NCBI RefSeq assembly: GCF_021155765.1
Contig: NC_060116.1
Span: 11,718,001 to 11,782,000 of the forward strand
Direction: 5' to 3'
Origin: Diprion similis
Lineage: Eukaryota > Arthropoda > Insecta > Hymenoptera > Diprionidae
DNA length: 64,000 nt
Of the stretch, positions 426 to 63,657 are shown in pieces. The notes beneath the pieces were generated by a model. It was not told the DNA's origin and did not search any database. It saw only the letters and a program-made list of their open reading frames with translations. The position numbers and the translations under genes were made by a program. Positions within the stretch are counted from its first letter, which is position 1. Each line of letters begins with the position of its first letter.

Positions 426-1089
426 TTAGTGAAGTCCGTAATCGTAGTCAAAATCGTATTGATCGTAGTATGCGAACGGTTCTGCGATATTGTTGATTTC
501 AACGTGCTCAATATCATTTGACGTATACGGATCTGTAAAATATTTTTTCATCAATGATTCTCACGATTCTGTGTATACTTTGTCATTTAATTATAATCAA
601 TTTTATTCCTATCGTCTTACCTGCGTTGTCAGAAGCGAAAAAAAGATCGTCGGTATCGTCAACAATAACAAACGGTAATGCTTTTGTAGGCGAAATTTCA
701 TACTGCAGTTCTAAACAAATATAAAATGAAAAAATAACGAGCAAACTTGGGTTACGGACGTAAACTCAAAGTCACCCCGTACTATGTCTGTATAGTAAAC
801 AAGTTCAAGTTCGAGTTTACGCCGCCTTATCGCTCTGCACAGAATCGAGCCGGTTTCAGTTTCATTTTGTCTGCGGCCGGGTTGGGATCTATCCAAATTT
901 CTTACCGTGAAGATTGTGTGACCGAGTGTTCGGCTTGTTCCGGTTTTCTATGTTTACGTTTTGATAGCTAGTCGCGCCGTGGCCATGATGGACTGTGTGC
1001 AAGTTCGGAAAGTTATTCTCCTGCAAGGTGTGATCAACGATACTTCGGGTGATTCTTCCGGCCCACGAAGCAGCGATCATCATCATCAT
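426..1089 (-). CDS. Small acidic, Tyr-rich secreted protein (3 exons seen, possible extra 5' exon)
   Basis: Exons are 906-1089, 621-710 and 426-532, with phase-1 introns. All donors read GT-AAG or similar and all acceptors end in TTTAG or TACAG. The joined product is about 126 residues and starts MMMMIAASWAG. The C-terminal half is acidic, and the last 20 residues are rich in Tyr and Asp (YYDQYDFDYDYGLH). I do not recognise the family. A good acceptor (CTTTCAG) sits 9 bases before this ATG, so translation may really begin upstream. A possible first exon, ATGGAG followed by GTAAGT, lies at 1880-1885 and joins in frame to give MELCTMMMMIAAS, a better signal peptide and the same micro-exon plan as the neighbours. 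The three-exon core is fairly sure and the upstream exon is tentative. Confidence 0.62.
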
Positions 1090-2093
1090 CGTGCACAGCT
1101 GAAAGGTAGAATATCAACGTGAAAATACTTCTAGTTTTTAAAAAATTTTTACGTCTGTAACCATGACTGTACGATTGATTGTAATCATGAATTGGTTATA
1201 CAAATTTTTACGGACAATCACTCACTAATAATTTCATAACGACTCTGCTGCGGTAATTTTACCCCGCGATGATAACTTTGCGAATATGTATCTTCTACTG
1301 AGCACAATCTTCCCGTAACGAGCCGTTTTATGCAGTTTGTTTGTTAGGAAGTTTCGTAATACCATGGGAATGAAACGTACTAGAGTCTTGAAATCGCTGC
1401 TCTATCAGCATGCCTATGGGAAATATACCATAGAATGGGCCCCTTGCATAATATTTTACGCGAATTGGGATCACTCGTACCGCGTATAAAAGACCTTGTG
1501 AATAATTGTATGAATTCTGGTAAATTCGGAAAGAGGTTCTTATTTCTTTCAAAAACACTACGCGTTTGCTCCAAGTTCGCGTCATCGAGGCAACTTCGAA
1601 AAATGCATCGTTTTTAGTGTGTTGTATAATAATTAAAAAATACGAGTAACAAAAACTCGGATTCGCATTCAGGCTTTTGAGTCTCTAAAGTAAATTATTC
1701 TTCCCCATTTAATTTAATTCGTTGGAACAATTAAATACTGAAAACCTTTCGTAAGATTTCCGCGAGAATTTACCGGATAAATTATTATCAAACGTTGCGA
1801 AAGAGCGCTTGTTTCACGTATGTATATACGTCATGTGTAATTAATGAATGGATACTTTGCTCCGCAATCGGATACTTACCTCCATTATACACTCTTAACG
1901 ATTTCACGCAGCGATTGCGCTATATTGCGCACGAGATCTGGGTTCGCACCTCGAAATACCGTGAAAACACGTGTCTTATTTTCGCGTACTTGACCCATTT
2001 GTAATATCCTACACACATGTACATACATACATACATACTTCGAAATGGGAATAATATTCAGCGTGAGAAAGTATTCTATGTTCAAAATTTCTT

Positions 2094-2099
2094 TTTATT
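2094..2099 (-). terminator. Poly(A) signal AATAAA
   Basis: AATAAA on the minus strand, about 150 bases past the stop of the His-Gln-Pro gene. Confidence 0.5.
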
Positions 2100-2247
2100 A
2101 GTTCAACCAGTGTGTACATTATCCAATTTTGATTTCATTACAAAAATTACAATTAGCAAACAGTACATATTAGACTAAAGTGTTAATTCCTCTTCGATTA
2201 ATGTCGCGCGTGAAGAAAACCGAATGTATAAAGCCCGTTGGACCGGT

Positions 2248-3631
2248 TCATTTATGGCAAGGTTGATTAACATTGATGATTTTTGACTGATAATGTCCAC
2301 CGACCGCGTAATCAACTCGTGGCGCAACAGATGATACAGGATGTTGCGCATAGTGAACAACCGCATTCTGCACCACAGGTTGATGAATTTTTAACGGAAT
2401 GTGAACTATCGGTTGATGTACAATTGGCTGATGGATTTTCGGCGCGACGTGAAACACGGGTTGATGAATTTTTTGAACGTAATTAACCATCGGCTGGTGC
2501 ACCGGCTGATGTATCTTCTGAACGTAATGCATCATTGGCTGATGATAGTTTGGGGCGTATTGAAGCATCGGCTGGTGAGCATTCTGCACGACTGGCTGAT
2601 GTATATTTACGTAAGAAATTCGAGGTTGATGTATTTTCTCGCAGTCAACATGCGGCGACGCTGGTGCAGAAACTTTGACGATTGGTTGTTGCTCTGTTTT
2701 ATAAACAATATCCACGCTGGTATGCTTGTTCGTATGAGCCGGGGCGAAATAGATGGGTTTAGGTTGGGTTAGGTGTTTTGGAGGCAGGTAAGAGATCTGT
2801 TGGAACACTTGCTTTGGGTAATAGGACTGTGTTTGCATCAGCGGTTTGACCATCGGTTTACCGGGCACAACGAACGTTCCCAAATGCTTACCATCTTCGC
2901 ATGGAATCTCTTTGACAAGCGGCGTTTTTACCGGGTGAATGAGCTGCACTGGCTGAATATGCTGAATCGGCTTCACGTAGGAAATTGACTGCTCTTTTAC
3001 AATCGGAGCGTAAATTGGCTGCTGGATGTATTGAACCTGGTGTTTGGCGATCGGTTCAACTTTGTAGGCTGCGTGATGCACTGCTGGTCTCTGAATCGTT
3101 TGGTAAATCATTTTCGGAATCACTGGTCTTTGGTATTCCGCCATTACCACCTTCGGTGTATGGTGATAAGTCGGAATTATCAACGGACTGTGATACGTTG
3201 GCGGTACGTGGTGGGTGGAAACTTCGGACGCAGGGGGTAGGTAACCAGCGGAATGCAATATGGGTATGGGACACGGTGATGATCCCCCATGGTTGAGGTA
3301 TCGTTTCAGTTTCAAACTCATCCCGACCGTCTCTTCCTTCGTGTCAGACATCATCTCCGGCGAACCTCGGGCTCCGAGTATCTCGAAGAAGATCCCCGAA
3401 AGCCCCAGAAGGCACATGACCTATCGCGAATGAAACAGAACGCATCATTTAAAAAAATAAATATTGCTTCTATACTAAATTAGGTAACGATATGTTGTTG
3501 GCTAGATTATTGACATTTTTTCGTAGCAACTTTCAGTCCAAGCGATTTAATTCCGTGTGTATAATTGAGAATGATGATGTAAGTGAACGAAAGATCCTCA
3601 GGAGATTCACTCTTACCAGTAGCCTAAACAT
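2248..3631 (-). CDS. His-Gln-Pro repeat secreted protein
   Basis: Exon 1 is 3617-3631 (MFRLL, donor GTAAGA). Exon 2 is 2248-3420 (acceptor ATAG, phase 0). The product is 395 residues. The signal peptide runs over MFRLLVMCLLGLSGIFFEILG, ending near residue 21-23. A KLKR site follows at residues 42-45. The rest is low complexity, rich in His, Gln, Pro, Tyr and Val. The C-terminal 150 residues are built from units around IHQPV, HQPM and VQKIHQPV, repeated more than ten times. There is one Cys near residue 50, one in the middle (HVDCEK) and one at the end (QPCHK). It looks like a structural cuticle or adhesive-type protein, but I cannot name a family. The many His residues could bind metal, which is inference only. 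Confidence 0.8.
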
Positions 3632-3723
3632 GGCTGTCGAATGGAATGGAAGCTTGAGACGATGGTTTGAAAGATGGACGAGACGAAGAGCTGGACTAGG
3701 AGCTTGAGATACGCGTCTCGTTA

Positions 3724-3730
3724 TTTTATA
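3724..3730 (-). promoter_or_regulatory. TATA box of the His-Gln-Pro gene
   Basis: The minus strand reads TATAAAA about 95 bases before the ATG at 3631. Position and sequence fit a core promoter. Confidence 0.6.
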
Positions 3731-4144: not shown

Positions 4145-4150
4145 TTTATT
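4145..4150 (-). terminator. Poly(A) signal AATAAA of Vajk-like gene 1
   Basis: AATAAA on the minus strand, about 155 bases past the stop codon. Confidence 0.5.
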
Positions 4151-4306: not shown

Positions 4307-5249
4307 TCAGTGCTTCCAGCCTCCGTGTCCTTTGCTGCTTTGGTGATGGAAGACGTGCTTGTATACCGGTACGTGGACGGCGTATGGTTTCGGGATTGGT
4401 ACCGGGAAATGTTTTTCCACGGTGACAGGATACGGTTTTTCAACAACGTACGGGACCTGAAAGACAATTTTTTTAGTCATTAATTTCAGAGGAAATAAAT
4501 ACAGAAAAAAATTTAGTCGCTACTCGCTTGTATCGGAAACCGAATTCACATGCGTGCGGCTCGATTGTGTCCGTCTGACCACATCGCGTCCATGACTACT
4601 TACGCTCGGATATGATCAGTACTGTATATACTCGTAATATGTATAATAAGCGATATGTGCGGACTCTCACTTGGCTGATTTGTTCCGGATCGTTAGAAAG
4701 GAGAACGGAATTGCTTTGATGTGTTAGTCATTTTTGAGAATTCCAATTGGCGATGTGTATTACCTTCTTTTCCACGACGTAAGGCTCTGGCTTTTCTACC
4801 GGTATTTCAACGTGCTTGATAACTTCAACAGGAACGGGGTGCGGAACCTGCACTTGGACTTGGTACGGCTGCGGAATCGGGACTTTGATGTGCTGGGGAA
4901 CAGCGACTGGCACCGGATGCGGTATTGGGATGGCGTATTTTTTGTATATCGGTATCTCGACTGGTTTTGAGGTTTCGTGATACGTCGTTCCACCGTGCCC
5001 ATGTTCTTCTTCGCCGTAATGACTGGCTGAAGCTAGCCCCACTATCGTTGCCAATATCTAAATTAAACCAATCCACTGATGATCACCATCCTTTTTCTTA
5101 CTCCAAAATTCATTTATCGGTTTTGAGTTTTGACTTGTGAATAAGAAAAAATAAAAAAAGAAAGAAAAAAAGCGAAACGGAAATTTTTTTTTCTCTCTCT
5201 TTTTCACGCACCGGAGCTACGTGCAGTTACTACTTACAAAAATCTTCAT
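4307..5249 (-). CDS. Vajk-like Pro-Val-Glu-Lys repeat protein 1
   Basis: Exons are 5238-5249 (MKIF), 4764-5057 and 4307-4456, both introns phase 0. The product is 151 residues. The signal peptide is MKIFILATIVGLASA. A short acidic/His/Gly spacer follows. The core has alternating motifs IPHPVPV, IPQPYQV, HPVPVEV, IPVEKPEPY, VEKPYPV and [10 protein letters not shown], and it ends GHGGWKH. Strict alternation of Pro and Val with Glu-Lys pairs is the hallmark shared with the four paralogues to the right. It resembles Drosophila Vajk cuticular proteins (recalled, not searched). Compared with the next paralogue it lacks the phase-1 intron after the YKKY motif, so exons 2 and 3 of that gene are fused here. 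Confidence 0.85.
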
Positions 5250-5360
5250 GGTCCTGATATATGATCAGGTGTGCCTGTGGTGTGTTTTTATTATACGAGG
5301 AACCTTATGGCACTTCGCTTCGGTCCGCGATGCTTTGATGCTTTCAAAGTCACGGCCATC

Positions 5361-7153: not shown

Positions 7154-8011
7154 TTAATGCCACCCTTTACCGTGTCCACCGGAGGAAGTGTGATGGAAAA
7201 CGTGCTTGTAAACTGGCACGTGAACTGGGTACGGCTTGGCAATTGGAACTGGGAATTTCTTCTCGACGTATACTGGATAGGGCTTTTCAACGATGAAGGG
7301 TACCTGTCCGGATGCAAAAAAAAAAAAAAAAATTAAAACAACTAATCCAAACTAACTCTAGAATTTGTATTTCTTTTTTTTTTCAACGATTACTTACGTG
7401 CTTCTCGACGGTGTACGGCTCGGGCTTTTCAACCGGAATTTCAACGTGCTTTATAACTTCCACGGGGTAGGGGTGAGGGATCTGAACCTGGACATTGTAT
7501 GGTTGGGGTATGGGGATCTTGATTTCCTGAGGCACTTGTACCGGCACGGGATGAGGAATTGGTATGGCTGTTGAATAGAAAATGCGCGAATGATTAATCG
7601 ATTGATGAAGAATCGAACAGTTAATAATTTGTATAGAACTGGATGAACACTGTCTTCATGCAATTGCTTTGCACATGTTAATTAATACAAGACGGTGTCA
7701 GACTTACCATACTTTTTGTAGATGGGAATGTGCACGGTTTTTGTCTTTTCTTCGTAAGTTGACTTGCCGTGATCCTCTTCGTATCCACTGGCGTTGACCA
7801 CCGCGGCTAAGGCCACAAATCCCAGGATAAAAATCTAGAATTCAATCATTTTCCTCATTATACGATCGTGGATTAGAACGAATTTTTGAATCTATTCAAT
7901 TTATTCAGTTTTAGCGTTATTGATAATGATAAAGTTTGGCCTTCGATATTTTTTCATCAAACATATAATATAGGGACGCGAGTCTGCCATAATGCTTACA
8001 ATTTTATTCAT
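7154..8011 (-). CDS. Vajk-like Pro-Val-Glu-Lys repeat protein 2
   Basis: Exons are 8000-8011 (MNKI), 7708-7834, 7398-7567 and 7154-7303. Intron phases are 0, 1 and 0. The product is 152 residues. The signal peptide is MNKIIFILGFVALAAVVNA. The core aligns closely along its length with the gene at 4307-5249: [73 protein letters not shown], end GKGWH. The phase-1 intron splits the codon just after YKKY. The same position and phase occur in two longer paralogues, so it is probably ancestral. The likely role is a secreted cuticle protein. Confidence 0.86.
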
Positions 8012-11228: not shown

Positions 11229-12337
11229 TCAATGTCCTTTGCTACTGTGAACGACGGTTTTGTATACAGGAATTTTGATCGGGAACCGCTTGATGACTGG
11301 CACGGGAACGTGTTTGTACACCTTGAAAGGCACGGGCTTTTCCACCTTGTAAGGAATGATTTTCTCCACCGGAGTTGGCACCTTCTTTTCGACCTTAGTC
11401 ACGACGTTTTTGATCACCTGGAATAGAATGACGCGTTAAGTTTGGAACAGGTTTTTCTGAGGGATGATCAACCTTACTTTTCCGAATAGTCTTACCTCGT
11501 ATGGGACGGGCTGGGACACGGGAACCGCTACCGGATAGGGTTGCGGCACGGTTTGTATCACTGGATGAGGGATCTTGACCTCAACCGGCTTGACCACCGG
11601 AACTCCAATTTCCTTGACCACCGGGATAACGTGAAGCCCGTGTCCCACGTGACCCCCGCCTCCGATGCTAAAGACGGAATCCCAGCCTCCATGTCCTGTT
11701 GAATACCGAAATGGTTCAATTTTGGGTATGGAGTAACGTTTCCCATTTTGTGGGTTCAATAATACCGCGAGAGCTATTTCCCCATTTAATGAATCTTTGA
11801 TGTCTCGCTAACAAGTCCCCAGAAATCGTCGGTTTTGGGGAGCTCCAGTTCTACTTGAGTCATCAAAATTACTCTTTACGAGCCAGAAACACACCTCCTA
11901 GATTCCAGCCGCCACCGTGACCTCCAAGGCTTGACTCGTCGAGGGAAATTGCCGGCAATTCGTGGCCGTGACCTCCCACGGAAATCTCCCCTAGACTCAG
12001 CCCACCGTGGCCTCCAATGTCCCAGCCTGACCCCTGACACCAGCCGACGATCCCCAGTAAAAGCACCTTCAAAATACACCTCGCATTAGGAACGCTTCAC
12101 CGTTTCATATACAGCTATGATGAATTGTTTGAATGAATCTTATTTCACTATAGATTAGGATTAGGCACCCCAAATTTTATGGGGGTATAATATTCATCGG
12201 TTGTTTTTTATTCGATTTGCCGCACACTTGTCACTGATTTGGAACAAAGTTCATTTAATCATATTGCTAGTTCATTTAATTGAACTTTGGCTAATTTATA
12301 GGAATCTGGTTGAACTGTTACGTACGATTCTGTTCAT
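11229..12337 (-). CDS. Vajk-like repeat protein 3, with Gly/His-rich N-terminal region
   Basis: Exons are 12326-12337 (MNRI), 11895-12066, 11496-11695 and 11229-11417. Intron phases are 0, 1 and 0. The product is 190 residues. The signal peptide is MNRIVLLLGIVGWCQG. Residues 17-90 are Gly/His-rich (GGHGG, VGGHGH). The core then runs VIPVVKEIGVPVVKPVEV, IPHPVIQ, VPQPYPVAV, VSQPVPYE, KKVPTPVEK, YKVEKPVPFKV, PVPVIKRFPIKIPVYK. The intron after KEIG seen in two paralogues is absent. Instead one phase-1 intron splits the Gly/His region and a phase-0 intron follows PVPYE. The first exon MNRI is identical to that of the next paralogue. Confidence 0.85.
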
Positions 12338-15646: not shown

Positions 15647-16727
15647 TTAGTGATGATGACCACCGCCGCCTCCGCTTTTTGCGTGGTGATAGATGGTCTT
15701 GTAAACGGGAATCCTGATTGGATAGGGCTTGAATACGGGAACAGGAATGTGCTTTTCGATCTTGATTGGCACGTGCTTCTCAACGGCGACTGGAATGTGC
15801 TTCTCAACTGGATAAGGCACCTTCTTCTCGACGGGGACAGCTACGGTTTTGATAACCTGAATCGGCACGGGTTGCGATACCGGAACTGCGACCGGGTAAG
15901 GCTGCGGAACACCAACAGCAACCGGGTGAGGAACGTTGATTTTAACCGGCTGAGCGACAGGCACACCTGGAAATCGATCACAACGAATATAACACATCGC
16001 GAAGAATAACCCCCGAGCCATTTCCTCCCTGATAAAATCTGTCGATGATGAAAAAGCTGCCCTTAATCCTCACCGATTTCCTTGTAGACTGGAACCGCAA
16101 CGGGCTTCGTCACTTCCACGTGTTCCGAGACTGGAACGCTTTGAACGTAGTTGTGACCACCGTCCAGGGAAATTCCGTGACCACCGCCGTCGCCCCCGTG
16201 ATCACCTCCGAAGTTTTCGAAGGCTGCGTAGCCTTGGCTCTCTCCGAAACCACCGTGGCCACCGCTGGCACCAAAACCCTCGAAGCTCTGACCCCCATGA
16301 CCCCCGTAACCTCCCTCGTAGCCACCACCCCCGGCCTCTAGATGGCTGCTGGATCCATCCGATCCTCCGTGGCCTCCGAAATCGTAGCCCCCGCCCTCAC
16401 TTCCGGAACTTAAATTCTCGTAACCGGATCTCATGGATATGTGCTGCCCGTTGGTGTCGGACGATAAGGCTTGAGAATGATATTCCGGCTGGTATTGATA
16501 CGGGTGATAAGATGGCTGCCAGGGCGCTGCGGCTGCCAGCGATAAGACGGAGAGTAAAAGTACCTGGAAGAGAAGAGGACAATTCGTTATTACTTTTTTA
16601 CACAGTTTAGGTGAAACTTAATGTTTTCTTCTGATAAGAGTGAAATCAATTTTTTACTGACGACGGTTTTTCGTCTTTTTTACACGAATCATGATCGTTC
16701 ATCGTCTTTACTCACGATTCTGTTCAT
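15647..16727 (-). CDS. Vajk-like repeat protein 4, with Gly-rich N-terminal region
   Basis: Exons are 16716-16727 (MNRI), 16074-16563 and 15647-15966. Intron phases are 0 and 1. The product is 273 residues. The signal peptide is MNRIVLLLSVLSLAAAAP. A Gln/Tyr/His stretch follows, then a long Gly/Ser/His-rich region (GGYDFGGHGG, GGYEGGYGGHGG) to about residue 130. The core runs [20 protein letters not shown], then the intron splits a Gly codon, then [76 protein letters not shown]. The end is GGGGGHHH. Intron phase and position match the genes at 7154 and 18548. Confidence 0.87.
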
Positions 16728-18547: not shown

Positions 18548-20312
18548 TTAATGATGGCTCCATCCGTGACTCTTGACTCTGTGGAACACGTGCTTGTAAA
18601 CTGGAATGTGTATGGGGTACGGTTTTTCAACTGGTACTGGTATATGCTTCTCAATTGTAATTGGAACCGCCTTCTCAACTGGCACTGGGATTATCTTCTC
18701 CACTGGATACGGGACTTTCTTCTCAACTGGTACAGCGATCGTTTTTACCACGGGAACGGGTACCGGATGTGCGACGGGTACGTGGACCGGATAGGGTTGC
18801 GGCACCCCCACCGCTATGGGGTGAGGAATGGCTATGGCGACTGCCTGGGCGACGGGAACACCTGAAAAATGAATTTTATAAATCGGCATCACGATATCAG
18901 GTCCTACAATAAGTATACAATTTGAAAATTCTCCGAGCTGTTACCTATTTCTTTGTAAACGGGAACGGCGACTGGTCTGGTCACTTCGATGTGCTGACCC
19001 AGCGGTATCGTTTGAGCATGGTGATGCTGCACTTGGACTCCCCCGTATCCTCCACCGTAGTTGGATTCGATGTTGGCTACGCCTAGTCCACCGTATCCAC
19101 CTCCGTAGTTCGATTCGATGTTCGCTCCATGGAGTCCGCTGCCGATTCCTCCTCCGAGATTGTATCCTATGTTCTGACCGGCACCGTATCCACCTCCGTA
19201 TCCACCTCCGTATCCACCTCCGTATCCAACCTCTTGTCCGCCCCCGTAGCCTTCCAGTCCAGAGCCTCCGTAGGCAGAGCCATAAGACGCCGATTCCTGA
19301 TGCTGCAAGCTCCCCTGGTTGTAATTATCCAGCCCGCCGAGGTTGCCGGCTACATTGCCATTGTCAATATTGCCGTATGAACCCGATGAGCCGATTCTGT
19401 TGAACGAAGTTAACGATCAAAATCGGTTTTTTATTATCGAGAGTCGGTAGGCTTTAGGAATTGGAACTTCTAGATGTACCCTGATCAGAGTTTTAGTATT
19501 TTTACACCTGATATCGGTTTACTCGTGGCACGTGCCTCTATGCAAATGAATTAAAATTCTGGTTTTTTTATTACTCGTCGTTTCGTTGATGATTTTAATA
19601 TGTTACTAGCTGGTAGTTATTTTATAGTAGAAATTGAGAGTTGAATGGCACGATTTATTTCTTCTTTTTACAGTATCAATTTCACGCTGTTTTTACGATC
19701 AATTTATGAACTTACCCTTGCCAACCTCCGGTGGAATAGTCACTGGCCAGACTGCAGGTCGTGACTAATAAGAGGACTGCGACAACCTGAAAGAATTTTA
19801 TATATATATTCATGAGTACAATACTGCTGAATCAAAAATTCTTAAACTGTACGGATCTACGTCTGAATTTGATCTAATCACGACGGTCATTGTTCATTAG
19901 CGTATGTTACGATGAGTGAATAAGCTGGTGACAGCAGCTGATTGATCTTTTTGCTCCAGTGTTCAATTATCTCAAATACAGCATTGAGAAATGCAGCATC
20001 GTCGAAAAAACGCGATCGAATTAACAAAGCCCGAGCGTATACAAGCGAACGAATGAGTAGATAGATCGATGTAAAAAGTTGAAATATTTAGAACAGCTTC
20101 CCTTTCGCTATTTATTATGTATACTATCTCTCGTCTCCCGTATGCATAGTTCATACTCTCGGTAAGAATCAGCTCCTTTCGCCAGTCGCTAAATTTTTTT
20201 CTAGCAAACAGATCACAGCGCGATGGGTGATCGGAGCTCTAAACGATGGTAAAAAGATAATCGAGATACTTTGATAGTTGTTGGGTATATGTTTACTCAC
20301 GGAAGTGATCAT
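18548..20312 (-). CDS. Vajk-like repeat protein 5, with GGY-rich N-terminal region
   Basis: Exons are 20301-20312 (MITS), 19716-19786, 18945-19396 and 18548-18861. Intron phases are 0, 2 and 1. The product is 282 residues. The signal peptide is [18 protein letters not shown]. The N-terminal half is Gly/Tyr/Asn-rich, with runs of GGGYGGGY and three copies of a unit like [12 protein letters not shown]. The core begins [21 protein letters not shown] phase-1 intron follows KEI at the same place as in the genes at 15647 and 7154. It continues [75 protein letters not shown] and ends with a His/Ser/Trp tail. It has one more intron than its neighbour, inside the Gly-rich part. Confidence 0.87.
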
Positions 20313-23691: not shown

Positions 23692-24844
23692 TTAACCCCA
23701 TGAAGGATACGACGGTTTTTCTACCGCTGCATGTTGCAGAGCGTTAGCGATGGCATTTTCCTTCGCTGCAACGATGTCCTTTTGCTGAGTAAATGAAAAA
23801 AATAAAAAAATAATTAAAAAGTCTAACATTAAGCCAAATTAATAAAAAAAAATGTCAACGCACCCTGGCTTCTTCTTCGCTGATACTAATTTGCTTATCG
23901 ACGTCTTGTTTCTTCAGTTCCGCGGCTGTGGCTGTGGCCGTTCTCTGGATGGCTGCAGCAGCGGCGGCTTCTCTGGCTGCAGCGACTCTTTGGGCAGCTG
24001 CAACGGCGTCCTTCAGGGTCGCAAGTCTTTGCTGGGAAGCAACCAGCTGTCTGGCACTGCCTCTGGCCTCGGCTAAAGCATGGGCTGCAATTTCTTGGGA
24101 CCTTTGTTGCAAAAATACTAGTTGGTTAAAAAAAGACCATTCTTCAGGTTTCAGGATTAAGTCAAGAAAAGTGCGCAGTCACCTGTGAGCCGCCTCTCTG
24201 GCGTTCGCTTCCTTGACGAGGGCGATCTTTTGCTGAAGATGAGCGGCCTGCTTGGCATCCGCGACCCTTTGCTGCGCCACAAGGACGTTATGACTCGCAT
24301 CCTTCGCCTGCTGGATCGCCTGGATCACTTCCGGCGGATAGGCGATGCTCGGTGTACCCGTCGGGAGATCTCTCAACGCCTTTTAATTCGGACGAAACGT
24401 TGAATTAATGTTAGTACGACGGTTTACCGATCAAAAACCTGTTTTTTCTCACAGTATTCTCGCCGGTCTATCACGGCACCATTCACTCACTTGGAGAGCG
24501 ATGTTGTGCGTCGCCTGCAGCTGAATCTGACCCAAAGCTGCGTCAGGGTTGCCCCATCCACCAGCGACGTAGCCGACAGGCGTCCATCCGCTAGATCCGA
24601 AGGCTGGAGTCCCTCCGAAGACGTCGTATCCTGGGACGCCGAAAACTGAGACACCGCGTTTATCCTTCGGCTTGGAATCAGGAGATTTTTGGGTCTCTGT
24701 AACGGCGACAGCCATTGAGACGGACAGGAGAATCTGAATGTTGATATTTCGAGATTAGAAAGATGGTGGTTTGGATTAGCTTGTTTTTATAGATCTTGGT
24801 GCTGGCGTCAGTGATGGACGAATTACCAATAGAGCGGTCTTCAT
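23692..24844 (-). CDS. Ala-rich secreted coiled-coil protein
   Basis: Exons are 24827-24844 (MKTALL), 24491-24733, 24183-24379, 23864-24101 and 23692-23784. The product is 262 residues. The signal peptide is MKTALLILLSVSMAVAV. A short polar propeptide ends in KDKRG (KR at 31-32), a likely convertase site. Residues about 35-85 are Gly/Pro/aromatic (VFGVPGYDVFGG, GYVAGGWGNPD). From about residue 105 to 245 it is predicted alpha-helical and very rich in Ala, Gln, Glu and Lys, with few Pro or Gly. It includes REAAAAAAIQ and long heptad-compatible stretches. The C-terminus is EKPSYPSWG. The layout recalls coiled-coil silk fibroins of Hymenoptera in composition only. Those are usually intron-poor, so homology is not claimed. 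Confidence 0.85.
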
Positions 24845-41000: not shown

Positions 41001-42760
41001 AATTCCGCGGACAGCTGCTGACGTTCAGCAAAAATCGCAAACACGATGTATGATTCACGATCTACACAGTGCCGCGATCTCGTCGTTGTCTAGTCTTGTT
41101 CTTGAGACCTGTTGCTGCTCGTTAGTTAGTGTATCATACGTGTATACATAGTACCGTTTTAAAACTGGTTACATACATCAGTCGCAGGCTTTTATTCTCA
41201 CTGCTTTCTTTCATATCCTCATATGTAGGTACATTTTGCGTTGAATGTTATTTTTCTCGTTATATTTTCCTTATTTTGTGGTAAGCAATAGTACACAATT
41301 CTAATTTTCGCTGATCGGCAAGCGCGGATTGAGGTAAAAATTTATAAGTGAAACCGCTCCGATTTTGAAGTAAAATTTTTAAGGCTATAAATCGTAATAT
41401 TAAGTATCTTGGGAACTGAAATACTATTAGAAATTTATGTGATACAGTACAACGATAAATTGCATAAGTTAATTTCACTTGAAGCCGTATCGCAGATTGG
41501 TGTGAACTTTCACCAAATTGCTCAAGATTATCTTCTTCTAAAAAAAGACTTATTACACCTTAGAGTCAACCTTATTGAAAGGACGTACAAACGTGCTCGT
41601 ACATCAAGGCGCTACTAATACGCGATTGTAATAAACTCCGGGACGAGACGAAAATTACTTTCTCCTCGTGGACTTATACTGCGCCATATATAATATCGTT
41701 GGGCACAGATTCCCGGAAGTCGCTGTATATCTCGGACTTGTCCTTAGACTCGGATATCCCGTTACAATTCAACCAGCCTACTTCTTTAAATTATATCTCT
41801 ACGTTACAGGCTTGTAAAAAATATGTGTAATTTCCCGGCACCGGATATTGCCATCATTTGGATCTTAGCTTGAGGTTTTACACTTCCGTTATTAGTCTTC
41901 TGATTTTTCAACTTCACGATACGCAGACCGGAGTAGAAGAAAATAAAAGGCGAGAGTTTACGAACTTTCTTAATGTTCGCGTGCGAGTTCGACCCCAAGG
42001 TCGTTAAATAATAACTATTACAATTTCAAGGTAACAAGAAGAGACACGCGAAGATATTATTTAATCCATTTTCTCCTCATCTTTTTTTTTCACGGTTCTC
42101 CTTTCACACCGATTATAAACGCAATGATATAAACGGAGGAAAGGTTCCATTGTTTTTCGTGTTACAATCAATATTATGTAATCGCATAACTATTGTAGAA
42201 AACTGTTTCGCATTACTAATTGATTTTTACACTTGCCTACTCGCGAACTTTTCGCACAGATTTAACAGATAATTTTTGGGTGTGACATAAGGTCTCTGAG
42301 CTTATCGATTAATGTAAGCCTCTCTCGATTCTGTGATTACCGACCGGAAAAAGGTAATCGAACGAAGTTGTAAACGATTCACCTTAGGCATAGTGTATTA
42401 AATTAAGAAAATAAGCGGGTAGAAATCAATGGACGTTACACCAGTGCAATTACATTAATAGCTGTTATAAGCGGTCCATCAAATTACAAATGTACTATCG
42501 GTGATCAAATAACATAAATTTAGAAGATCGTTAGGTGTATAAACAAAGTCGGAAAAAAAAATCTATCGAAAGGCGAACAATTTTACAAATTACGCGAGAC
42601 GATCGAACGGCGTGAAGCTAATGACAGCGCAGCAAATACACAAGAATTCTCGACGTGTCTAACGATTCGCAAAACGGTGAAGACGGAATACGGATCATTT
42701 GAATGAGCGGTGAAATAATCTATGTTCCCAACTTACGTATAATATCCACGTGAATTTCAT
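38009..42760 (-). CDS. Ser/Gln/Tyr-rich secreted protein with remote first exon
   Basis: Exon 1 is 42737-42760 (MKFTWILY, donor GTAAGT). Exon 2 is 38009-40219 (acceptor CGCAG, phase 0), about 2.5 kb away. No nearer ATG-plus-donor gives an in-frame signal peptide, whereas this join gives MKFTWILYILSCALFVANCA, a textbook one. The product is 744 residues. An acidic propeptide (EEEERQETLDDVVDL) precedes EKSKR (KR at 92-93). Directly after it, blocks such as NGNLGYGFQSNN, KYNYYLPAGKTG and VSIEESISPFLP have normal complexity and may be a conserved domain. The rest is Ser/Gln/Pro/Tyr-rich, interrupted by another ordered block, VRYEHKIVWKYPDG. The C-terminus is basic (APRKHKVKNVEIIDD). Family not recognised. 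Confidence 0.78.
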
Positions 42761-45762: not shown

Positions 45763-48700
45763 TTATTCAGATTTTCGCTTTTGGGTGTAAAAGTGAGCGT
45801 ACGATCCCTTCGACGGTAAAAATCCACTCTCCAGGCGCAGCGGCCTCTCTCGGTACCTAGAATTGAATTCAAAAACTCGTTTTACTTTTTGCCTACCGGT
45901 GAAGACAGTTCGCGCTATAAATGTACAAACAATCTTTACTGTTCCAGGAAAATACAACCAGAAACTCTAACGTCCCGACGATATGCAGTTAGATTAAAAA
46001 TTAGGAAAAATCGAAATAAACGGACTCACCTCTCACTATCTTGTGCTGCAATCACGTGACTCGGCGTGTAAGAATCCAGCAGGGATTTTGGCCCGGATGA
46101 ATAGTGAATATGGTTATCCGACTGTAAGTTTCCTGAGAAAACCGGTCGCAGCTGAGTGATTTGTTCACTCTTGAAGTTCTGAGCAGGAACTTCAGGTACA
46201 CTCAGAGTGTAGCGTGGCTCCTGTGGAATCTGTCGCGGAAACCGAACATGAGAATCATTGAGAAGTTTCAGAGCTAAGGTTCAAGAGTCAAAGATGCAAT
46301 CTTTAAACAAGTTGCGTTGAAGCTAGCGAAAGATCCTACATGGAAATTATTCAAGATTCACCCGACAGATTTTCTTGACTCTGTGATGTGTTGTAGTACG
46401 TAAAAAATATTGGACGAGCATAGTTCGCGTGCTGATTCGGTCCTTCAAGTGTTAAAGAAGACCATCCCTAATGTTCACCCCCCCAAAAATGAAATTTACA
46501 ACTTCCCAGGGTGAAAATACTACGCGTATTTATCACCTGTTAACAGTAAATAACGTTCAATTGGTAGTGTCGAAAATCTTACGTCGTTCTCGATAAAACC
46601 TAAAAAAAGTTTCTTTTCGGATAAACCTTACGGATTGACTTCACACTTTAAATGGCTGAACCAGCACATGCAAAAATATCTGTCCAATGTTTTTCCATGT
46701 ACTATAATCTATGTACAGGTAAATCTCGGATACTTTCCTTGTTAGTAAAGTTAAAATACGGCGCGTTACCTTGGCGTAGCTTTGGGCGATACTGTGAGAT
46801 GTTTGCTGCTCCGAAATCTGGGCTGCCAAGTGCTCGGCCAGCTTGGGGGTGACGTAGAAGGGTTGGCTGTTAGTGTAGCTCAGGGTGTTGCCTTGGCTCG
46901 CGAGAGAGGGTGTGTAAGTAGGTCTTTGGTAGTATTGGCTCGACTGAGGCTGGACGTAGTAAGCTTGGGTGTAGGCCACCTTGGGCACAGTGGTGTAAAT
47001 CGGACTTTGCGGGGTGTAAGTTAGTCCGGGGTAGGCTTGCGCCGATGAGTAAGCTTGCGGAACGACGTACGCGAATTTTTCCGTCTCCTGAAACGGTTAA
47101 ATTGCTAGTTTTTCAATAGTCACAAGTGTTAGGGGAGATCTTTTCAGGCGTAGAATTTGAAAGAACATGAAAAAGAGTTGCAGACGACTCCAACTTAGTG
47201 ATGAGACAAAATTTCAAATAGTATGCACACCGTGTACCGATTACAATCACATTCGTACCAATGGCAGCCATATACATTGCATGTAATCAAAAGTACAATG
47301 GCCACAAATGGTACGAATATGATTTGATAGAGGTACCTAAACAACACTTTTTTTAACCACTGAAGTTTACCCAGTATCAAAAACTTTTTTCCAAAACTTG
47401 TTCATTGCTCGATCTTGGTAATGAATTGATCAATCACAGAGACTAAATCGTAAATCTCGCGTTATTGAATGCAGAATTTTATGAAAGTGTCTAGAAATGG
47501 TGGATGTACCCTATGGATCATGATTTTAGTGTTACAAGCTGCAAAGGATGCGCTGAATATGGTTCCTCACTCACGGATAATACATATGCCGGCTTGTATG
47601 ACAATCATTCTCGTTCAATATCAGAATAATTAACATGTAACTGCATTAGGTTTAAAGTTCTGAGTACTGTTGAACTGATCATCGTGCTGGAACTTATACT
47701 GGAAGTTTTCGATAAAGAGTTCTGACGCAAATGATCTTCCGCCGGCAGATAGGCAACCGAGGCTACGTCTGAGCTACTTTTACTGCTGTGAGATGCCACT
47801 TCGGTTGCCTGTCTGCCGGCGAAATATCGCTTGAACGCATATGACAACTATTCCTTAACGAGTAAAGTGGTTATTGCTGTAGCTTGTTCTCTATGCTAAA
47901 TAGTAATCTATTCCGATATAAATGTAGTCCGAAACTTAATTCTGCAGTGATCATTTTTATCAGCGTCTGTCCATCTTGTCTATAGATTTCCTGATATTCA
48001 ATTAAAATGGAATCTCTTAAAAAAATCAGTTTCGATAATGAAATCTATGACTTGAAAGTTGGTGCTCCCGCATTTCATGCCAATAAAAAATATCTGGTTG
48101 GACGATTTTTTCTATCTGATACATTAACTTTATGACATAATAAAAATAAAAAAATATTCTAGAGATCTTTTAAACTAAGTGGAGATTTTACTACTTAAAA
48201 TTTCTATTGCAAATTTCTGGAAGTAAATTTTCCGTCTCATAGTAGACACATGAGTTTTACAGTGTAAGAGATGAAAAAACGATGACAAGATTTCGTTGAG
48301 AGAATAGACAATTTATGTCTCCCTTTATACGTGCTTATTGAGCCTATGTTGATGTATTTTAAGAATTGCATCACAATGACAAGCGTGATCTTATGCGAAT
48401 GCAAGTCACCTCAGGGTTCTAATAAAGAGAAAAATAAACGAAAAAAAACTACCGATTGTACTTTCTCCAGGTTACATGACACGGTCGAATACGAGATGAC
48501 TCACTTCCTGTGGCATAGTTCATGGTTATAATATCACGGGGTTGACCAGGGATTCATTCGTTATACCGTAAATTGCAAAGTTAAATTGTTACATACCTTT
48601 GGTTCGTACGTCGATTTCTCAGGCTGCACATACTGCGGTTCATAGACGTATTTAATTTGCGTTTGCGGTTGGTAGGAGATTTTCGACGGTTGGCCCAAGG

Positions 48701-50040
48701 GTGGAATGTAGGTGGCAGGCAGTTTCACGTTTTGTGCGGCTTGCGTCGCAAGACGGTGAAGAAGCGGTTGCACTTGACTCTTGGAGCCCAATCCAGAGCT
48801 TGCGGAAGTTGGGAAGTAAAGCAGCTGCTGCTGATTCGTGTAATCGCTGGCTGAAAATCGATGTGACCAAAATCAATGCTCGCACCCTTTGGAAACTCAT
48901 TTGCACTTTGCAAACCTTGGGTGAACCGTGCTTTAACGATGTTGAAAAACCAACAATCCTCACCTTTGCTAATTCCCTGGGAAAATTTCTGCGCCGCGTA
49001 TTTTTGCTGGTAGCTTTGGATCTGGTTACCCACCGATATCTCGGGCTGGTAAGACAATCCATCGATCACTTGAGACTGGTACGATATTTGAGGTGCGATT
49101 TTCGGAGACTGGTAAGCTTCCGCTTGATAGCTGGCGGGATTGTAGAATTGCTGAGGAGCTTGCGCCAATAGTTGCTGCTGGTGTTGGTAAGCTTGCAGAT
49201 CCTGGCTGTACGCTTCTGGTTGTACCTGCGAATAATTAATTCCTTGATTAATATTCCGCTTTAATTACCTACGGAGTAATTATTAACCGGTTTGTTGCTG
49301 TTTCTCCCGTTTTAACGGCGATGAATTTTGTTCCTACGGGTAATGGCACCGCGTTTCAATTAGAACGGAATGTGTTGTGCGTTCGCTAATTACCAGATAC
49401 TTAATTTCGTGAGACGGCTGACTACCGGCTGACCGAGCTTCGGTCTGATACTGATACTGAGCCTTGCTCTCAGGATTCTCCGAGTTGTACTTGAGCTGGT
49501 TTGGTCGGACATTCTCCTCTTCGGACTGCTCTTCTGACTTGAGATTGTCCCTCTCTATGTCTTCGAGATTTATCTTTTTTTCGCCGAGGGCAACAGCGAA
49601 GCATAAAGCTAGGATCGCGTAGGATTTCTGAAATGTAATAAATTGTCATCAACGTTGTCTAAATCGCCATGATAATCTATGACTAATTCACCTCGTCACA
49701 CCACGCGACTTATTCGATATTTAAATTTCCAGAAGTAAAATCTACCGACTCCGTTAAACCGTAAATTGTTATGAAAGATTATTCAAATTTCTCGATTCAA
49801 TGGAATGACATTCGGGTTTTGAAAGGTTAATTAAACCGCAGGTGTTAAATAAATTTCGGGTCAAAATTCCATGTAAAAGAAACTCCACTTTCTCCTTGAC
49901 TCAAGTCTATAATTTTTAAAACGTAGGAAGATTGGGAAACAATATTTCTAGCGCAGCAAAGTCTTTCAAACGCGATGCAATTCCAGTTAAGTGAAAATTC
50001 GACAACGCTCAGAATTAAAAACATTGTGTTAATTCACCAT
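45763..50040 (-). CDS. Tyr/Gln-rich secreted protein, seven exons
   Basis: Exons are 50038-50040 (the ATG alone, donor GTGAAT), 49394-49627, 48964-49225, 48597-48850, 46770-47087, 46030-46220 and 45763-45856. Intron phases are 0, 0, 1, 0, 0 and 2. All joins keep frame and total 451 residues. The signal peptide is MKSYAILALCFAVALG. An acidic segment (LEDIERDNLKSEEQSEEE) follows. The body is Tyr/Gln/Pro/Ser-rich, with motifs such as YQSPKIAPQISYQ, YVYEPQYVQPE, YTQAYYVQPQ and FYVTPKLAEHLAAQI. The C-terminus is basic (YTQKRKSE). There is no K-x-K-R site after the signal peptide, unlike several neighbours. Introns 3-5 are long, and intron 4 holds a strong hairpin. No family recognised; a cuticle or matrix role is inferred from the context. 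Confidence 0.82.
47733..47828. repeat. Long inverted repeat (hairpin) inside an intron
   Basis: The arms are 47741-47760 and 47801-47820, 19 of 20 bases paired (core GCCGGCAGA, AGGCAACCGA), with a 40-base loop. Pairing extends outward with a few mismatches to about 47733 and 47828. The hairpin lies in the intron between 47088 and 48596 of the seven-exon gene. It could be a precursor RNA, the termini of a small element, or part of an unrecognised exon. Confidence 0.6.
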
Positions 50041-50166
50041 TGCGAATTTGGACCGTTTGAGAGAAAAAAAGACACCATCAAACGACAAAAAAAAAAGATA
50101 ACGCAGACAGGATGTTCACTTTCACTGTTTGTCTGACTCTGAATCTCGCCGACGTTCTGGACCAAT

Positions 50167-50174
50167 CTTATATA
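50167..50174 (-). promoter_or_regulatory. TATA box of the seven-exon gene
   Basis: The minus strand reads TATATAAG about 130 bases before the ATG at 50040. Confidence 0.6.
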
Positions 50175-50628
50175 GGCCCACGGGTCTCTTTGCCACTCCC
50201 AAAGTCCAACCACTTAAAAATGCGAGGTGTAACACCATGGTGGTAAAAGTGAATTCTCCTTCTCTTCGCGGTTCGATTCTGATCGTCACGGGACTCCCAA
50301 CAATGAACCACTAAACCACTATTCAAGTGAAGAAGGAAGAATATTACAGAAAAGTTTTCTTTCAAAAATCAAGGAATCTAACGCATCATAAATTGCAGTG
50401 TGAAAATCTCTCAGCTTATTCAAAGCATGTGTATTGAAAAATCGACCCTAAAAATGGTCGTCCGAAATCGCATCGTCAATGAAAGCAATAAAAAATTAAA
50501 AAGAGGAATTGGACAGAAAGTTTTGCGTTTCAATTTCTCGCTATCGATGGAATAGAAAATCGATCATTGTATTCGGACGAACGATACTTCGGAATTCTGA
50601 TATGGCAATGAAGCGTTTGGGTACCCAC

Positions 50629-50715
50629 CATAATGGAGCCAATAAAAATTCCAACAATGACGCGACGGACCCTAGCTCTACTGTAGAATCAGAACTGGCA
50701 TCTTTCACTTATATA
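50629..50715 (-). promoter_or_regulatory. Possible second promoter and first exon of the seven-exon gene
   Basis: The minus strand has TATATAAG at 50708-50715. About 80 bases on, an ATG at 50629-50631 is followed directly by GTGGGT. This is the same ATG-then-donor layout as the used first exon, and splicing to 49627 would give the identical protein. It could be an alternative or decayed promoter copy. Confidence 0.25.
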
Positions 50716-56129: not shown

Positions 56130-58299
56130 CTAACCTTGATTTCCTTGTTTCGTTCCGAAATTAACGTCTTCCAAATTAGTCTTGGCTTGTTGCTGAGGCT
56201 CCCGACTTAACGGGCCCCCGTTCATCAGGTGGTAAGTGTAGGCCTGAGGCCGCGCAGCAAAGCCTCCACCGTTCTGGGCCCTAAACGAAACCCCGTCTTT
56301 GATCCGGTAGGAAATTCCATGAGTCGATGGTGTCTGGTTATAGGATTGAACGAACGACTCGCCTGTAATTTCTGGTTGAGCCGGCGAAATGTAGGCGCTC
56401 TGAGACCTCTCGAAGGTTACTTGAGTCGCCGGCATCTGCGCTACGTTGGTATACGGGTGGCTATGGAACTTGGCCGGGGTCTTCGTCAGGGTGTCGGTAC
56501 CATGATGGAAATTTTCCAGGTCCTTGTCCGACTGTACGGAACTCTTGTCGTCAGTATCCTGCGTCTCGCCGTAAGCCCGTAAGGCCTCAGCCAATTTGCG
56601 TGAGTTCTGGTCATCCTGAGCGAGGAATTGGCCGTTCGAATCCTTGGAAGGCAGGTCCTGATCCTCGGATCTATACGCCTGCATCTTCGCCGTCTTTCCT
56701 GGCTGCGCGTTTGAGTAGAATAACTGACCCTCGCGTATCTTCGACGAGGGGACTTGATCCTGGGTGTAAACCTGAAGGTTATCCTGAGGGTTATCCGGCT
56801 TCGACATCTTCCCCTGCTGACTGAAGGATGCGTGGGACGGAGTCACGAAGTGCTGCGAAAACGCGGGGCCCAGAGATTTTGCCAGACTTTGAACCGCCGC
56901 GACTTGCTCCATCAGCTGGGCACGCGCGTAGCCCACCGGAAGTGGGTAGTTGGGACCAACGGGCCGGCCACCGACGCTGATCACCTTGTAAGTCGGCTGC
57001 AGCAACGGATGGTAATTGCCGGTTAATTGGTCGGCGGGAATCTTGTTGTAGGAGGAATCCAACTGGGGCGCGAGGTCCTTGTGGCTTTGCGATATCAAGT
57101 TGTCGCCGTCGACGAACCGGCCGCTCTCCTTCATCCTGGGCTTGGTAGCCTTCGGTTTTTCAGGTTTTTCGCTCGGATAATAATCCCCGCTAAATTCGCT
57201 CCTGATGGGAGGTCCTGGTGGTCCCACATTATCATGGCCTGGAAATGAGTAGGGAAAACCCTGGTTGTAGTACTCGGGGTAGAAGTACGACGGCTGAGGG
57301 TAGTACTCGGGGTACGGGCCGGAAGTCGGTGGACCGGAAGTGTAGGGGCTCGGATAACCGGCGAAGAGGCTGTTTCCGAAGTGGTGGGGAAACTGAGACG
57401 TCGGGGGACCTCGGGGATGCGAATTAAAGCCGGGAAAGTAGGAGTCTTTCGGACTTCCGGCGGCGAAGCTTCCGGTGAACGAGTCCCTGGACTCGGGACG
57501 AGGCGAGTAGAGTTCGGGCTTGAAGAAGGTTGCGAGATCTCGGTCGGAGCCTCTTTTCGTCAGTTTCGGATTGTACGGGTAGATCGGATGGATCGGCAGA
57601 AAAGGCTCGTCGTTTGGATTCACGTGCTTCCGGTACCTCTGCTGGGCGAAAATTCCGGGGGATATGAGAAGCAGGATCTGAAATCAGTTTGCGATTATTT
57701 CGACACGCTGTGTTTTCGCTTTCGCGATTACTTTTTTTTCGACAAATTTTGAATAATCGTAGAGAAATTGACTTGGCACTTGTTTCTCAATTTGTCAGTG
57801 TAATATCACGTAGTGAACAATTTCTTTATTTTTCATTAAGTTTGGTACAACGTATGGCTTTAGAAATATTCCTTTCACTCTGTCGGTTTTGTTGTAAACG
57901 CCTCGTTGTGCGGAGTTTATTTGCTCGCGAGGCTGACTAGCATACAATCATCATGTTACACATTATTTATCTAGTTTCTTGTTTTTTATTTATTTATTTT
58001 TTTTTTTTCAGAAACCTGCAAGTCGGTGAAAATTATATGTACCGCTGTTGATCATTTTCGACACCCGATCTGTTAAACTGGCCCGTGCGATTAAACGCTT
58101 TCAATTTATTGCTAAGTCCGGCTGGCTGATGACTGTTATTAATTTTTAGTCCTAAGATATAAATCTTTGTTAATTTAAGACGGGTTCTTAATGCACGAAA
58201 TTGATTTTCCAAGTTTTTTTCACCGATAGATTGACCCGCGAATGAATAAAAGTTACAAAGCTCTTGCTTGCCGCATAAAATACTGACCAAAATCTCCAT
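56130..58299 (-). CDS. Pro/Tyr/Gln-rich secreted protein
   Basis: Exon 1 is 58288-58299 (MEIL, donor GTCAGT). Exon 2 is 56130-57677 (acceptor TTTCAG, phase 0). The product is 519 residues. The signal peptide is MEILILLLISPGIFAQ. A short Pro-rich segment leads to LTKRG (KR at 45-46). The first 180 residues of the mature part are rich in Pro, Tyr, Gly, Ser and Phe (YPSPYTSGPPTSGPYPEYY). A less repetitive block follows (LLQPTYKVISVGGRP, YARAQLMEQVAAVQSLAKS). The C-terminal half is polar, Gln/Ser/Asp-rich. There is no Cys. Family not recognised. The donor is slightly off consensus, but the resulting signal peptide is excellent. Confidence 0.8.
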
Positions 58300-61400: not shown

Positions 61401-61941
61401 TGTGCATGCTGGAATATCTGTATGATAAACTCTGTGTTTTTTTTCACAATTTATTATCTTGCACTTGCTGAGTAATTGGCTTTACACTTATTGTAACGGT
61501 AAAGGCAAGACAGTAAAGTAAAGAACAAAGCATATTGTTTCATGATATTTTTCCTTTTATTACAAAACAATGCGGTATAAAATAAACTTAGGAAGAGATG
61601 AAAAATAATACGAAATAACTATACAACAGAGATCATTCGCTCGTATTACACAGATCTGTAATATCGAACGATGATCAAACAACATATCATAAATAGTCAA
61701 CAAGGATATCTTAAAGTAAACTGTTACATATTATAAATACGTGAACCGTTTGTTCACTCTGTATTATTATACTCGTCTCAATTGTTTCAGGTATTCGTGC
61801 TCTGTCGGCGTCCAGTCAATATTACAATGTCAAACGTTTGTCAATGAGAATGTGGAACTCGAAATGCCTCTCACTACTCACTCTGGGATTGAATGTGAAA
61901 AAAATTCCGATAATCAAGCCTCTTTGCGATACTTCACTCTT
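58469..61941. other. Intergenic, 3.5 kb
   Basis: No supported gene. A CT microsatellite lies at about 58878-58894 and T-rich runs at 59110-59215 and 61350-61368. A 14-base perfect inverted repeat (CATTCTTCCACCGC) occurs at about 60719-60732 and 60800-60813. A minus-strand open stretch at 60431-60727 overlaps one arm and has no clear start or splice context. A minus-strand AATAAA at 61556-61561 probably serves the gene ending at 61942. Confidence 0.4.
61556..61561 (-). terminator. Poly(A) signal AATAAA of the Ser/Gly/Tyr-rich gene
   Basis: AATAAA on the minus strand, about 380 bases past the stop at 61942. Confidence 0.4.
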
Positions 61942-63657
61942 CTAATATTTACCCCCAGGACTTGAGTACGAGATGGTGTCGTACTTGTTGCCTCCGGCGT
62001 TGTAACTGTCGTACGACCTTCCGGAGAAGCTCGCGTATCTTGGGCTCAAGCTCGAATAAGCTCCGTGCGAATCGCTGGGGCTTCCGTAGGAGCTCGAGGG
62101 TGCCGACGAGTAGGAGGAGTAGGACGAGCCTGCGTCGGAGCCTGAGTAAGAACCCGATGAAATTGGAAGGCTGTAGCTCGAGCTGTCCGAAGAGCCGCTG
62201 GAGAGTCCGATGTGGGATGACGAAGGGCTGTAGGAGTCGGAACTGCCGTGGGAGGAGGACGAGATCACCGGGGAGTTGTAGCCTGACGAGGATCCGGAGG
62301 CGCTGGCGGAAGCCAGGGCACTCAATATGGACCCGGACCCGTGGGATGAACCGGATGACGACGGGGAGCCGTAGCTCGAGCTCAGGGACGAGGAGCCCAG
62401 GCTGTATCCGGAGGAGGAGGGCGAGCCGTAGCTCGAGGAGGGTGCGCCGTAGTTAGAGGAGGGCGCGCCGTAGCTTGAGGAGAGCGAGGAGATTCCGTGA
62501 GAAGAGGAACCGGACGACGAGGGAAGGCCGTAGCTCGTTGACGGTGAGCTGTAGCTCGACGAATCCGAGGAGAGTCCGTGAGACGAGCTCGATGAAGACG
62601 GGAAGTTGTAAGAGCTGGAGGATATTCCGTGGGATGAGCCGGAAGAAGATGGGAGGCTGTAGCTTGAGCTGGAAGAGGATGGGAGGCTGTAGCTGGAGCT
62701 AGACGAAGAAGGGTAGCTGAACGAGCTGGATGAGATTCCGTGAGAGGAGCTGGAGGAAGGTGAGCTGTAGCTCGAGCCCGAGGAGACAGAAAGCGGAGCG
62801 CCGTAGCTGCCGGATATACCGTGAGAAGAAACAGCGGAAGACGGGAGGCTGTATGAGGAGCTCTGGATCCCGGAGGAGAGTGAGCCGAGAGAAATTCCGT
62901 GTGAGGAGGAGGATGAGGGGAAGCTGTAGGAAGAGCCGAGGGAGGCCGAGCTCAAGGGGAGGCTGTAGCTCGCGCCGGAAGAGACGGGAAGACCGAAGCT
63001 CGAGGCACCGGAAGAAGAGAGGCCGTGCAGAGAAGCTCCGGAGGAAATCGGGAGGCTGTACGATGAGCTCGCGCCGTTGCCGTAGGCCGAAAGACCCTGG
63101 ATCCCGGTGGCGTAGACCGGAGGTGTGTAGCTTCCGCTGTGGAGGCCGAAGGTGACGGGTCCCTGCTTACCGGCGGAGGCGATCAACGCACCTCCGTAGC
63201 CGCCTCCGAATCCGCCGCCTCCAACGCTAAGGGAAGACGCGCTGGGCAGCGAATACGACAGTCCGTGAGCTCCGAGGCCTTGGCTCACCGAGGGGAAGGA
63301 GTAGCCACTGCCGCCTCCGAGGCTGAGCCCGCCGAGGTTGTAGCCTCCTCCGAATCCTCCGAGGCCTCCGAAGCCCTGGAAGCTTCCGTGGCCCAGGGAA
63401 AGGGGGCTGCTTGATCCGCCGAGGGAGTATCCCGAGCTCAGAGAAGGCGCTGCGTAGCCTCCGAAGCTCTGGATAGGCGCCGATGAGTAGCCGGACGATC
63501 CTCCGAGGGACGAGCCTCCGATGTAACCTCCATCGGATACTCCTCGCTTCCCTTTAGTCGACGTAGATGAATACTTTTTGCCCTCGGATGATTTTCCGTC
63601 TTCGACTTTCTCGGATATTACGCTTGCTAGAAGCAGGACGCAGATACCGAGTACAAC
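61942..63657 (-). CDS. Ser/Gly/Tyr/Leu-repeat secreted protein (5' exon missing)
   Basis: The visible exon starts at 63657 after acceptor TTCCAG and encodes 571 residues. It opens in the middle of a signal peptide (VVLGICVLLLASVIS), so a short first exon must lie upstream, probably beyond base 64000. A Lys/Ser/Glu propeptide ends in KGKRGV. Then comes a Gly/Ser/Tyr/Phe-rich region (GGYIGGSSLGGSSGY, GFGGLGGFGGGYNLGG). About 330 residues of irregular repeats follow, around SYSLPSSS and SHGISSSS, then a Ser/Asp/Tyr tail ending YDTISYSSPGGKY. The repeats resemble silk-, glue- or cuticle-type structural proteins. Strong codon preference in the repeats leaves long antisense open stretches, which are not genes. 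Confidence 0.8.
   Translation of the reverse strand, partial: VVLGICVLLLASVISEKVEDGKSSEGKKYSSTSTKGKRGVSDGGYIGGSSLGGSSGYSSAPIQSFGGYAAPSLSSGYSLGGSSSPLSLGHGSFQGFGGLGGFGGGYNLGGLSLGGGSGYSFPSVSQGLGAHGLSYSLPSASSLSVGGGGFGGGYGGALIASAGKQGPVTFGLHSGSYTPPVYATGIQGLSAYGNGASSSYSLPISSGASLHGLSSSGASSFGLPVSSGASYSLPLSSASLGSSYSFPSSSSSHGISLGSLSSGIQSSSYSLPSSAVSSHGISGSYGAPLSVSSGSSYSSPSSSSSHGISSSSFSYPSSSSSSYSLPSSSSSSYSLPSSSGSSHGISSSSYNFPSSSSSSHGLSSDSSSYSSPSTSYGLPSSSGSSSHGISSLSSSYGAPSSNYGAPSSSYGSPSSSGYSLGSSSLSSSYGSPSSSGSSHGSGSILSALASASASGSSSGYNSPVISSSSHGSSDSYSPSSSHIGLSSGSSDSSSYSLPISSGSYSGSDAGSSYSSYSSAPSSSYGSPSDSHGAYSSLSPRYASFSGRSYDSYNAGGNKYDTISYSSPGGKY

Follow-up and report, generated by a model that had tools for sequence, protein, structure and literature searches.

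A one-strand cluster of secreted, mostly cysteine-free low-complexity protein genes in Diprion similis, probably for the cuticle or another apical matrix

The stretch of Diprion similis (Hymenoptera, Diprionidae) DNA studied here, 64,000 nucleotides of contig NC_060116.1 (C12:11718001-11782000; hereafter the window) in a genome of 269 Mb and 60 contigs, carries a cluster of genes for secreted, repetitive proteins. We modelled 16 such genes, spanning 426-76434 in window coordinates, which are used throughout, and all 16 lie on the minus strand; 14 fall in the window, while RF and S16 lie beyond its right end. A first-pass annotation, made from the letters of the window, had described a one-strand cluster of at least 13 secreted structural-protein genes. 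That cluster is real and is longer than first described. We believe that its genes, of which there are at least 16, probably code for secreted low-complexity structural proteins, most of them free of cysteine, that belong to the insect cuticle or to some other apical matrix, that these genes have the ordinary format of cuticle genes, that the five PV-rich members are tandem duplicates and that eight of the 11 others encode preproproteins.

Fifteen of the genes were modelled as coherent frames across GT..AG introns, and the sixteenth, S16, was read from the flank. In every model a first coding exon of 3-30 bases joins, at phase 0, a second exon that completes a hydrophobic signal peptide; signal peptides were judged by eye rather than by a signal-peptide program. 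The first exon is firm in 13 genes, with 12 bases in SM, PV1-PV5, QQR and GGY, 15 in HQP, YAA and S16, 18 in ALA and 9 in RF, so that exactly 12 bases are found in eight of the 16; that of GGY lies 65 bases outside the window. The gene plan noticed at first pass, a tiny first exon with a phase-0 join inside the signal peptide, is thus borne out, as is the description of the products as secreted low-complexity structural proteins. One detail was wrong: SM (426-1089) was thought to fit only with a tentative 6-base exon at 1880, but a 12-base exon at 1237-1226, encoding MKLL and followed by the donor GTGAGT, joins 1098 at phase 0 and has CATAAAAC 95 bases upstream.

Most promoters are of the TATA type, as had been proposed. 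A TATA score of at least 7.5 is reached 45-150 nt upstream in 10 of the 16 genes (9/13 of those with firm first exons), and a score of at least 6 in 12, against a background at the higher score of 86 of 1003 ATGs on the minus strand and 104 of 1110 on the plus strand. Several first exons were chosen partly by TATA score, which makes the p-values of this enrichment optimistic and partly circular; reading decided the choice in SM, HQP and PV3, and in PV4 and RF the exon adopted was preferred to a candidate with a higher score. A scored scan for the composite of TATA box, ATG, exon no longer than 30 nt and donor returned 11 rows on the minus strand between 0 and 77 kb (10 places, covering nine of the genes) versus one on the plus strand, and four minus and six plus in 227 kb of flank. 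The composite is present on the minus strand of the cluster more often than by chance. Strong TATA boxes alone are uninformative (from about -3 to 74 kb there are 45 on minus and 37 on plus), a strict pattern of TATA, initiator and micro-exon found little (five rows minus, two plus), and promoter likeness beyond the core TATA is weak.

The same plan of TATA box, micro-exon and phase-0 join recurs elsewhere in this genome, at six of eight Rebers-Riddiford (RR) cuticle loci on contigs other than that of the cluster, where the first exons encode MNRL, MNTL, MAVK, MYTAL, MAFK and MAFK, the last two (L007 and L008) being near copies; the two misses are L003, which stops inside the match, and L002, where an in-frame Met is possible. 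It is found again, by eye, in an unlinked paralogue of S16 (L034, C2:4525452), together with TATATAAA and an RDKR site. According to the available text of one survey, 86% of the Anopheles CPR (Rebers-Riddiford) genes that have introns interrupt the signal peptide, their first exons measure 3-36 nt with a median and mode of 12, and TATAAA is present in 126 of 153 (PMC2259329). The accessible parts of two further papers describe the same plan in CPR genes (PMC2793513) and a relatively small first exon in 14 of 24 differentially expressed cuticular protein genes of the honeybee (PMC3766229). Given that the RR loci, the unlinked S16 paralogue and the Anopheles CPR genes all have the plan, it is no evidence for the expansion of a cassette. 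Rather, the micro-exon plan is the common insect cuticle-gene format, which marks a cuticle-type gene and not descent from a cassette.

This bears directly on the explanation first put forward, in which duplication along the strand of one secreted-protein gene, with its promoter, micro-exon, signal peptide and perhaps propeptide, was followed by replacement of the mature regions. The conclusion from a common plan to cassette expansion is not supported, since six of the eight RR loci share the plan; the part that stands comes from the paralogy of the PV genes and from a [KR]xKRG[VI] prepro segment described below. As an account of the cluster we consider it somewhat unlikely.

The cluster resembles the insect CPR genes in its very short first coding exon, which ends within the signal peptide, in the TATA box and in clustering itself, features known from PMC2259329 and from the RR loci of this genome. 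It differs from them in domain content, as none of the at least 87 chitin_bind_4 (PF00379, Rebers-Riddiford) places listed genome-wide, many of them in clusters on C9, C2 and C14, falls in the window. It differs also in orientation, the RR clusters being of mixed strand (14 plus and 6 minus on C9, 4 plus and 8 minus on C2, 10 plus and 2 minus on C14). Because tandem duplication accounts for five of the 16 genes, their run on a single strand is less surprising than it would be for 16 independent draws.

Those five, PV1-PV5, are paralogues with 42-72% identity (72% for PV2 vs PV1) and, to judge from their sequences, arose by tandem duplication. V and P are abundant in all five, with 9-18% proline and 6.9-10.7 PV/PY pairs per 100 residues, and in PV1-PV3 K also ranks among the five commonest residues. 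A genome search with PV4 recovered the rest of the PV group and, on other contigs, six weak matches (E 1.1e-9 to 1.6e-4). In this richness and in the frequency of PV/PY pairs they presumably resemble the Vajk proteins, the comparison being one of composition and not of alignment; PV4 and PV5 differ in carrying a long Gly-rich front. A scan of 304 kb with a Nimrod-type EGF motif gave no match, and the association of Vajk genes with the Nimrod cluster in Drosophila was not seen here. PV1-PV5 fit the description of the CPLCP family, low complexity with high proline, in the available portion of PMC12426002. In the honeybee a Vajk2 homologue is placed in a pupal-high expression cluster (cluster 1) enriched for cuticle development, according to the accessible text of PMC13207783.

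Most of the other 11 proteins share a feature that the first-pass annotation overlooked. Eight of them carry one KR within residues 21-100, against a mean of 1.53 in shuffles, none of 5000 of which reached eight, and six have [KR]xKR after the signal peptide (shuffle mean 0.14, 0/5000 reaching six). No KR is found in residues 21-100 of the five PV proteins, nor in those of five RR proteins, a control drawn from the eight loci with L002, L003 and L007, the near copy of L008, excluded; in the bodies of 10 non-PV proteins it occurs in 4 of 55 windows. The KR of QQR and RF is not preceded by a basic residue at P4, and the longer motif [KR]xKRG[VI] is common to ALA, YAA, GGY and S16. The first exon of S16 was picked by the composite scan before KR sites were considered, and the exon of that gene was then found to carry RDKRG.

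Each gene model thus combines a promoter, in most cases of TATA type, with a tiny first coding exon and an intron that interrupts the signal peptide at phase 0, and we propose that eight of the 11 non-PV products would be preproproteins composed of a signal peptide, a short front segment and a KR site. A furin-like convertase may then cut at KR before the body enters the matrix. The proteins would be destined for the cuticle, and the genes may be expressed together, linked to the moult. The available text of PMC13225626 and PMC11304992 offers a parallel in C. elegans, where mutation of the N-terminal furin site of DPY-7 and DPY-8 blocks secretion. The cuticle collagens cut by BLI-4 are, likewise, structural components of a cuticle and have a basic cleavage site near the N-terminus. 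However, they are collagens, many with a transmembrane segment, and we claim an analogy of mechanism only and no homology. Open-access papers matching furin, dibasic sites or convertases together with cuticular proteins were nematode, tick, mite and virus work, and in the text consulted, all of it on C. elegans, we saw no insect structural cuticle protein with a convertase site.

The KR front segment is also a better candidate for a shared cassette than the gene plan. In ALA, YAA, GGY and S16 the prepro segment would fit a retained front with a replaced body, and a cassette signal of this kind, which may extend to between four and eight genes, is weaker than, and different from, the one first suggested. 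Taken further, the cluster might be a modular system, in which a fixed front (promoter, micro-exon, signal peptide and a propeptide ending in [KR]xKRG[VI]) is joined to unlike bodies and one convertase step would activate otherwise unrelated cuticle proteins together; we regard this as unlikely.

The bodies are indeed unlike. Genome searches covered PV4, ALA, GGY, KYP, S16, NQ, QQR, RF, HQP and exon 2 of YAA; besides PV4, only S16 found a relative, its one unlinked paralogue on C2, and the remaining eight matched only themselves at E values up to 0.01. Fourteen of the 16 models, including six proteins of 519-1466 aa, have no cysteine after residue 20. For the GGY gene the closest counterparts by description are the honeybee genes GB12449 and GB12811. 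These Gly-rich GGY genes outside the known cuticular protein families have GGY motifs, a signal peptide and a Cys-free mature protein, and they are expressed, in the honeybee, in the pharate-adult epidermis during adult cuticle formation (available text of PMC3766229).

Several points weigh against an assignment to the cuticle or to a single plan. HQP has four cysteines, and partial EKK has one after residue 20. The first exons of three genes are ambiguous (NQ, 30 bases; KYP, 9; EKK, 3, with two candidates), and the TATA scores of QQR (1.7) and RF (2.3) within 45-150 nt are low; QQR has TATAAAAG 169 nt upstream. SM, NQ and partial EKK have no KR in residues 21-100, a span that was set after the motif was seen. 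Among 20 open reading frame pieces of the window (SM, RF and S16 lay outside the scan) none had a Pfam match above the cut-off, the lone sub-threshold match being Lamprin at 15.3 bits vs a cut-off of 34. Finally, proteins of the chorion, of silk or of glue could have a similar appearance.

Eggshell genes, too, are clustered, TATA-driven and of low complexity. A chorion or vitelline gene cluster would account for clustered, cysteine-poor, low-complexity secreted proteins, and dibasic sites may equally suit matrix proteins that are processed on secretion. Nevertheless, the plan equals that of RR cuticle genes in the same genome, Cys-free GGY-rich genes are epidermal in the honeybee according to the accessible text of PMC3766229, and nothing points specifically to the ovary; we consider an eggshell locus very unlikely. 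Less probable still is a silk or glue cluster, which the composition of ALA (22% Ala) and GGY (40% Ser, 17% Gly) would suit, but to which the PV-rich and HQP bodies seem foreign, ALA and GGY each matching only themselves in the genome, and ALA having four coding introns where the coiled-coil silk genes of the honeybee are single-exon. The cuticle, or another apical matrix, remains our preferred destination for these proteins.

Table 1. Modelled genes and dibasic sites of the cluster, in window coordinates
Feature	Position	Strand	Description
SM	426..1237	minus	small secreted protein; 4 coding exons 1237-1226 (MKLL), 1098-906, 710-621, 532-426
HQP	2248..3631	minus	395 aa; exons 3631-3617 (MFRLL), 3420-2248; KLKR site
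HQP candidate convertase site KLKR	3301..3312	minus	
PV1	4307..5249	minus	PV-rich; exons 5249-5238 (MKIF), 5057-4764, 4456-4307
PV2	7154..8011	minus	PV-rich; exons 8011-8000 (MNKI), 7834-7708, 7567-7398, 7303-7154
PV3	11229..12337	minus	PV-rich; exons 12337-12326 (MNRI), 12066-11895, 11695-11496, 11417-11229
PV4	15647..16727	minus	PV-rich, Gly-rich front; exons 16727-16716 (MNRI), 16563-16074, 15966-15647
PV5	18548..20312	minus	PV-rich, GGY front; exons 20312-20301 (MITS), 19786-19716, 19396-18945, 18861-18548
ALA	23692..24844	minus	Ala-rich; 5 exons, first 24844-24827 (MKTALL)
ALA candidate convertase site KDKR (KDKRGVS)	24656..24667	minus	
YAA	26308..29374	minus	885 aa, low-complexity; exons 29374-29360 (MGTML), 29104-27514, 27456-27001, 26903-26308
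YAA candidate convertase site KLKR (KLKRGIV)	28970..28981	minus	position derived from gene model
NQ	31504..36069	minus	~1466 aa, Asn/Ser-rich; exon 2 35874-31504; first exon 36069-36040 plausible, uncertain
KYP	38009..42391	minus	~739 aa, Ser-rich; exon 2 40219-38009; first exon 42391-42383 uncertain
KYP candidate convertase site KSKR	39965..39976	minus	position derived from gene model
EKK	46641..50631	minus	Gln/Tyr-rich, multi-exon, partial model; signal-peptide exon from 49627; first-exon ATG 50631 or 50040
EKK further exons	~49226-48.6 kb, 47.09-46.64 kb	minus	from translation only
QQR	56130..58299	minus	519 aa; exons 58299-58288 (MEIL), 57677-56130
QQR dibasic site LTKR (KRG)	57552..57563	minus	position derived from gene model
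GGY	61942..63657 (exon 2)	minus	575 aa, Ser/Gly-rich; first exon MKPF at 64076-64065
GGY candidate convertase site KGKR (KGKRGVS)	63544..63555	minus	position derived from gene model
RF	72711-70408 (right flank, L009/L010)	minus	cluster gene beyond window
S16	76434-75740 (right flank, L009/L010)	minus	small Ala/Tyr-rich protein with RDKRG

Next to the cluster on the right lies an M14 carboxypeptidase gene (minus strand, about 80600-82700, L010), with a Propep_M14 match at E 2.9e-9 and a TATAAAAG box before its ATG. This secreted neighbour was a candidate for sharing the plan and was rejected, as its bases show an uninterrupted signal peptide; the plan separates the cluster from that one neighbour. 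Further right (L011 onward), a long satellite-like array begins at about 93683 and reaches at least 112383; its repeat unit measures about 304 bases, and most units have a 130-codon open frame on the minus strand. To the left, a pair of similar open frames, one on each strand and both with KPHKLIFLYRNLRRCHS, occupy about -1239 to -308 and probably belong to a repeated or inverted element. Beyond them are a Smaug-like gene on the plus strand (-5788 to -5111, L029), with SAM and PHAT matches, and, near -19 kb, an HMG-box gene.

For insect cuticle-type genes in general, the micro-exon plan is unusable as evidence of common descent, because unlinked genes have it too. The convertase-type site that follows shortly after the signal peptide, present in most of the unlike proteins of this cluster, is a testable feature. 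If the KR sites are cut in vivo, proteolysis might act as a gate on cuticle assembly in insects, as it does for the collagens of C. elegans.

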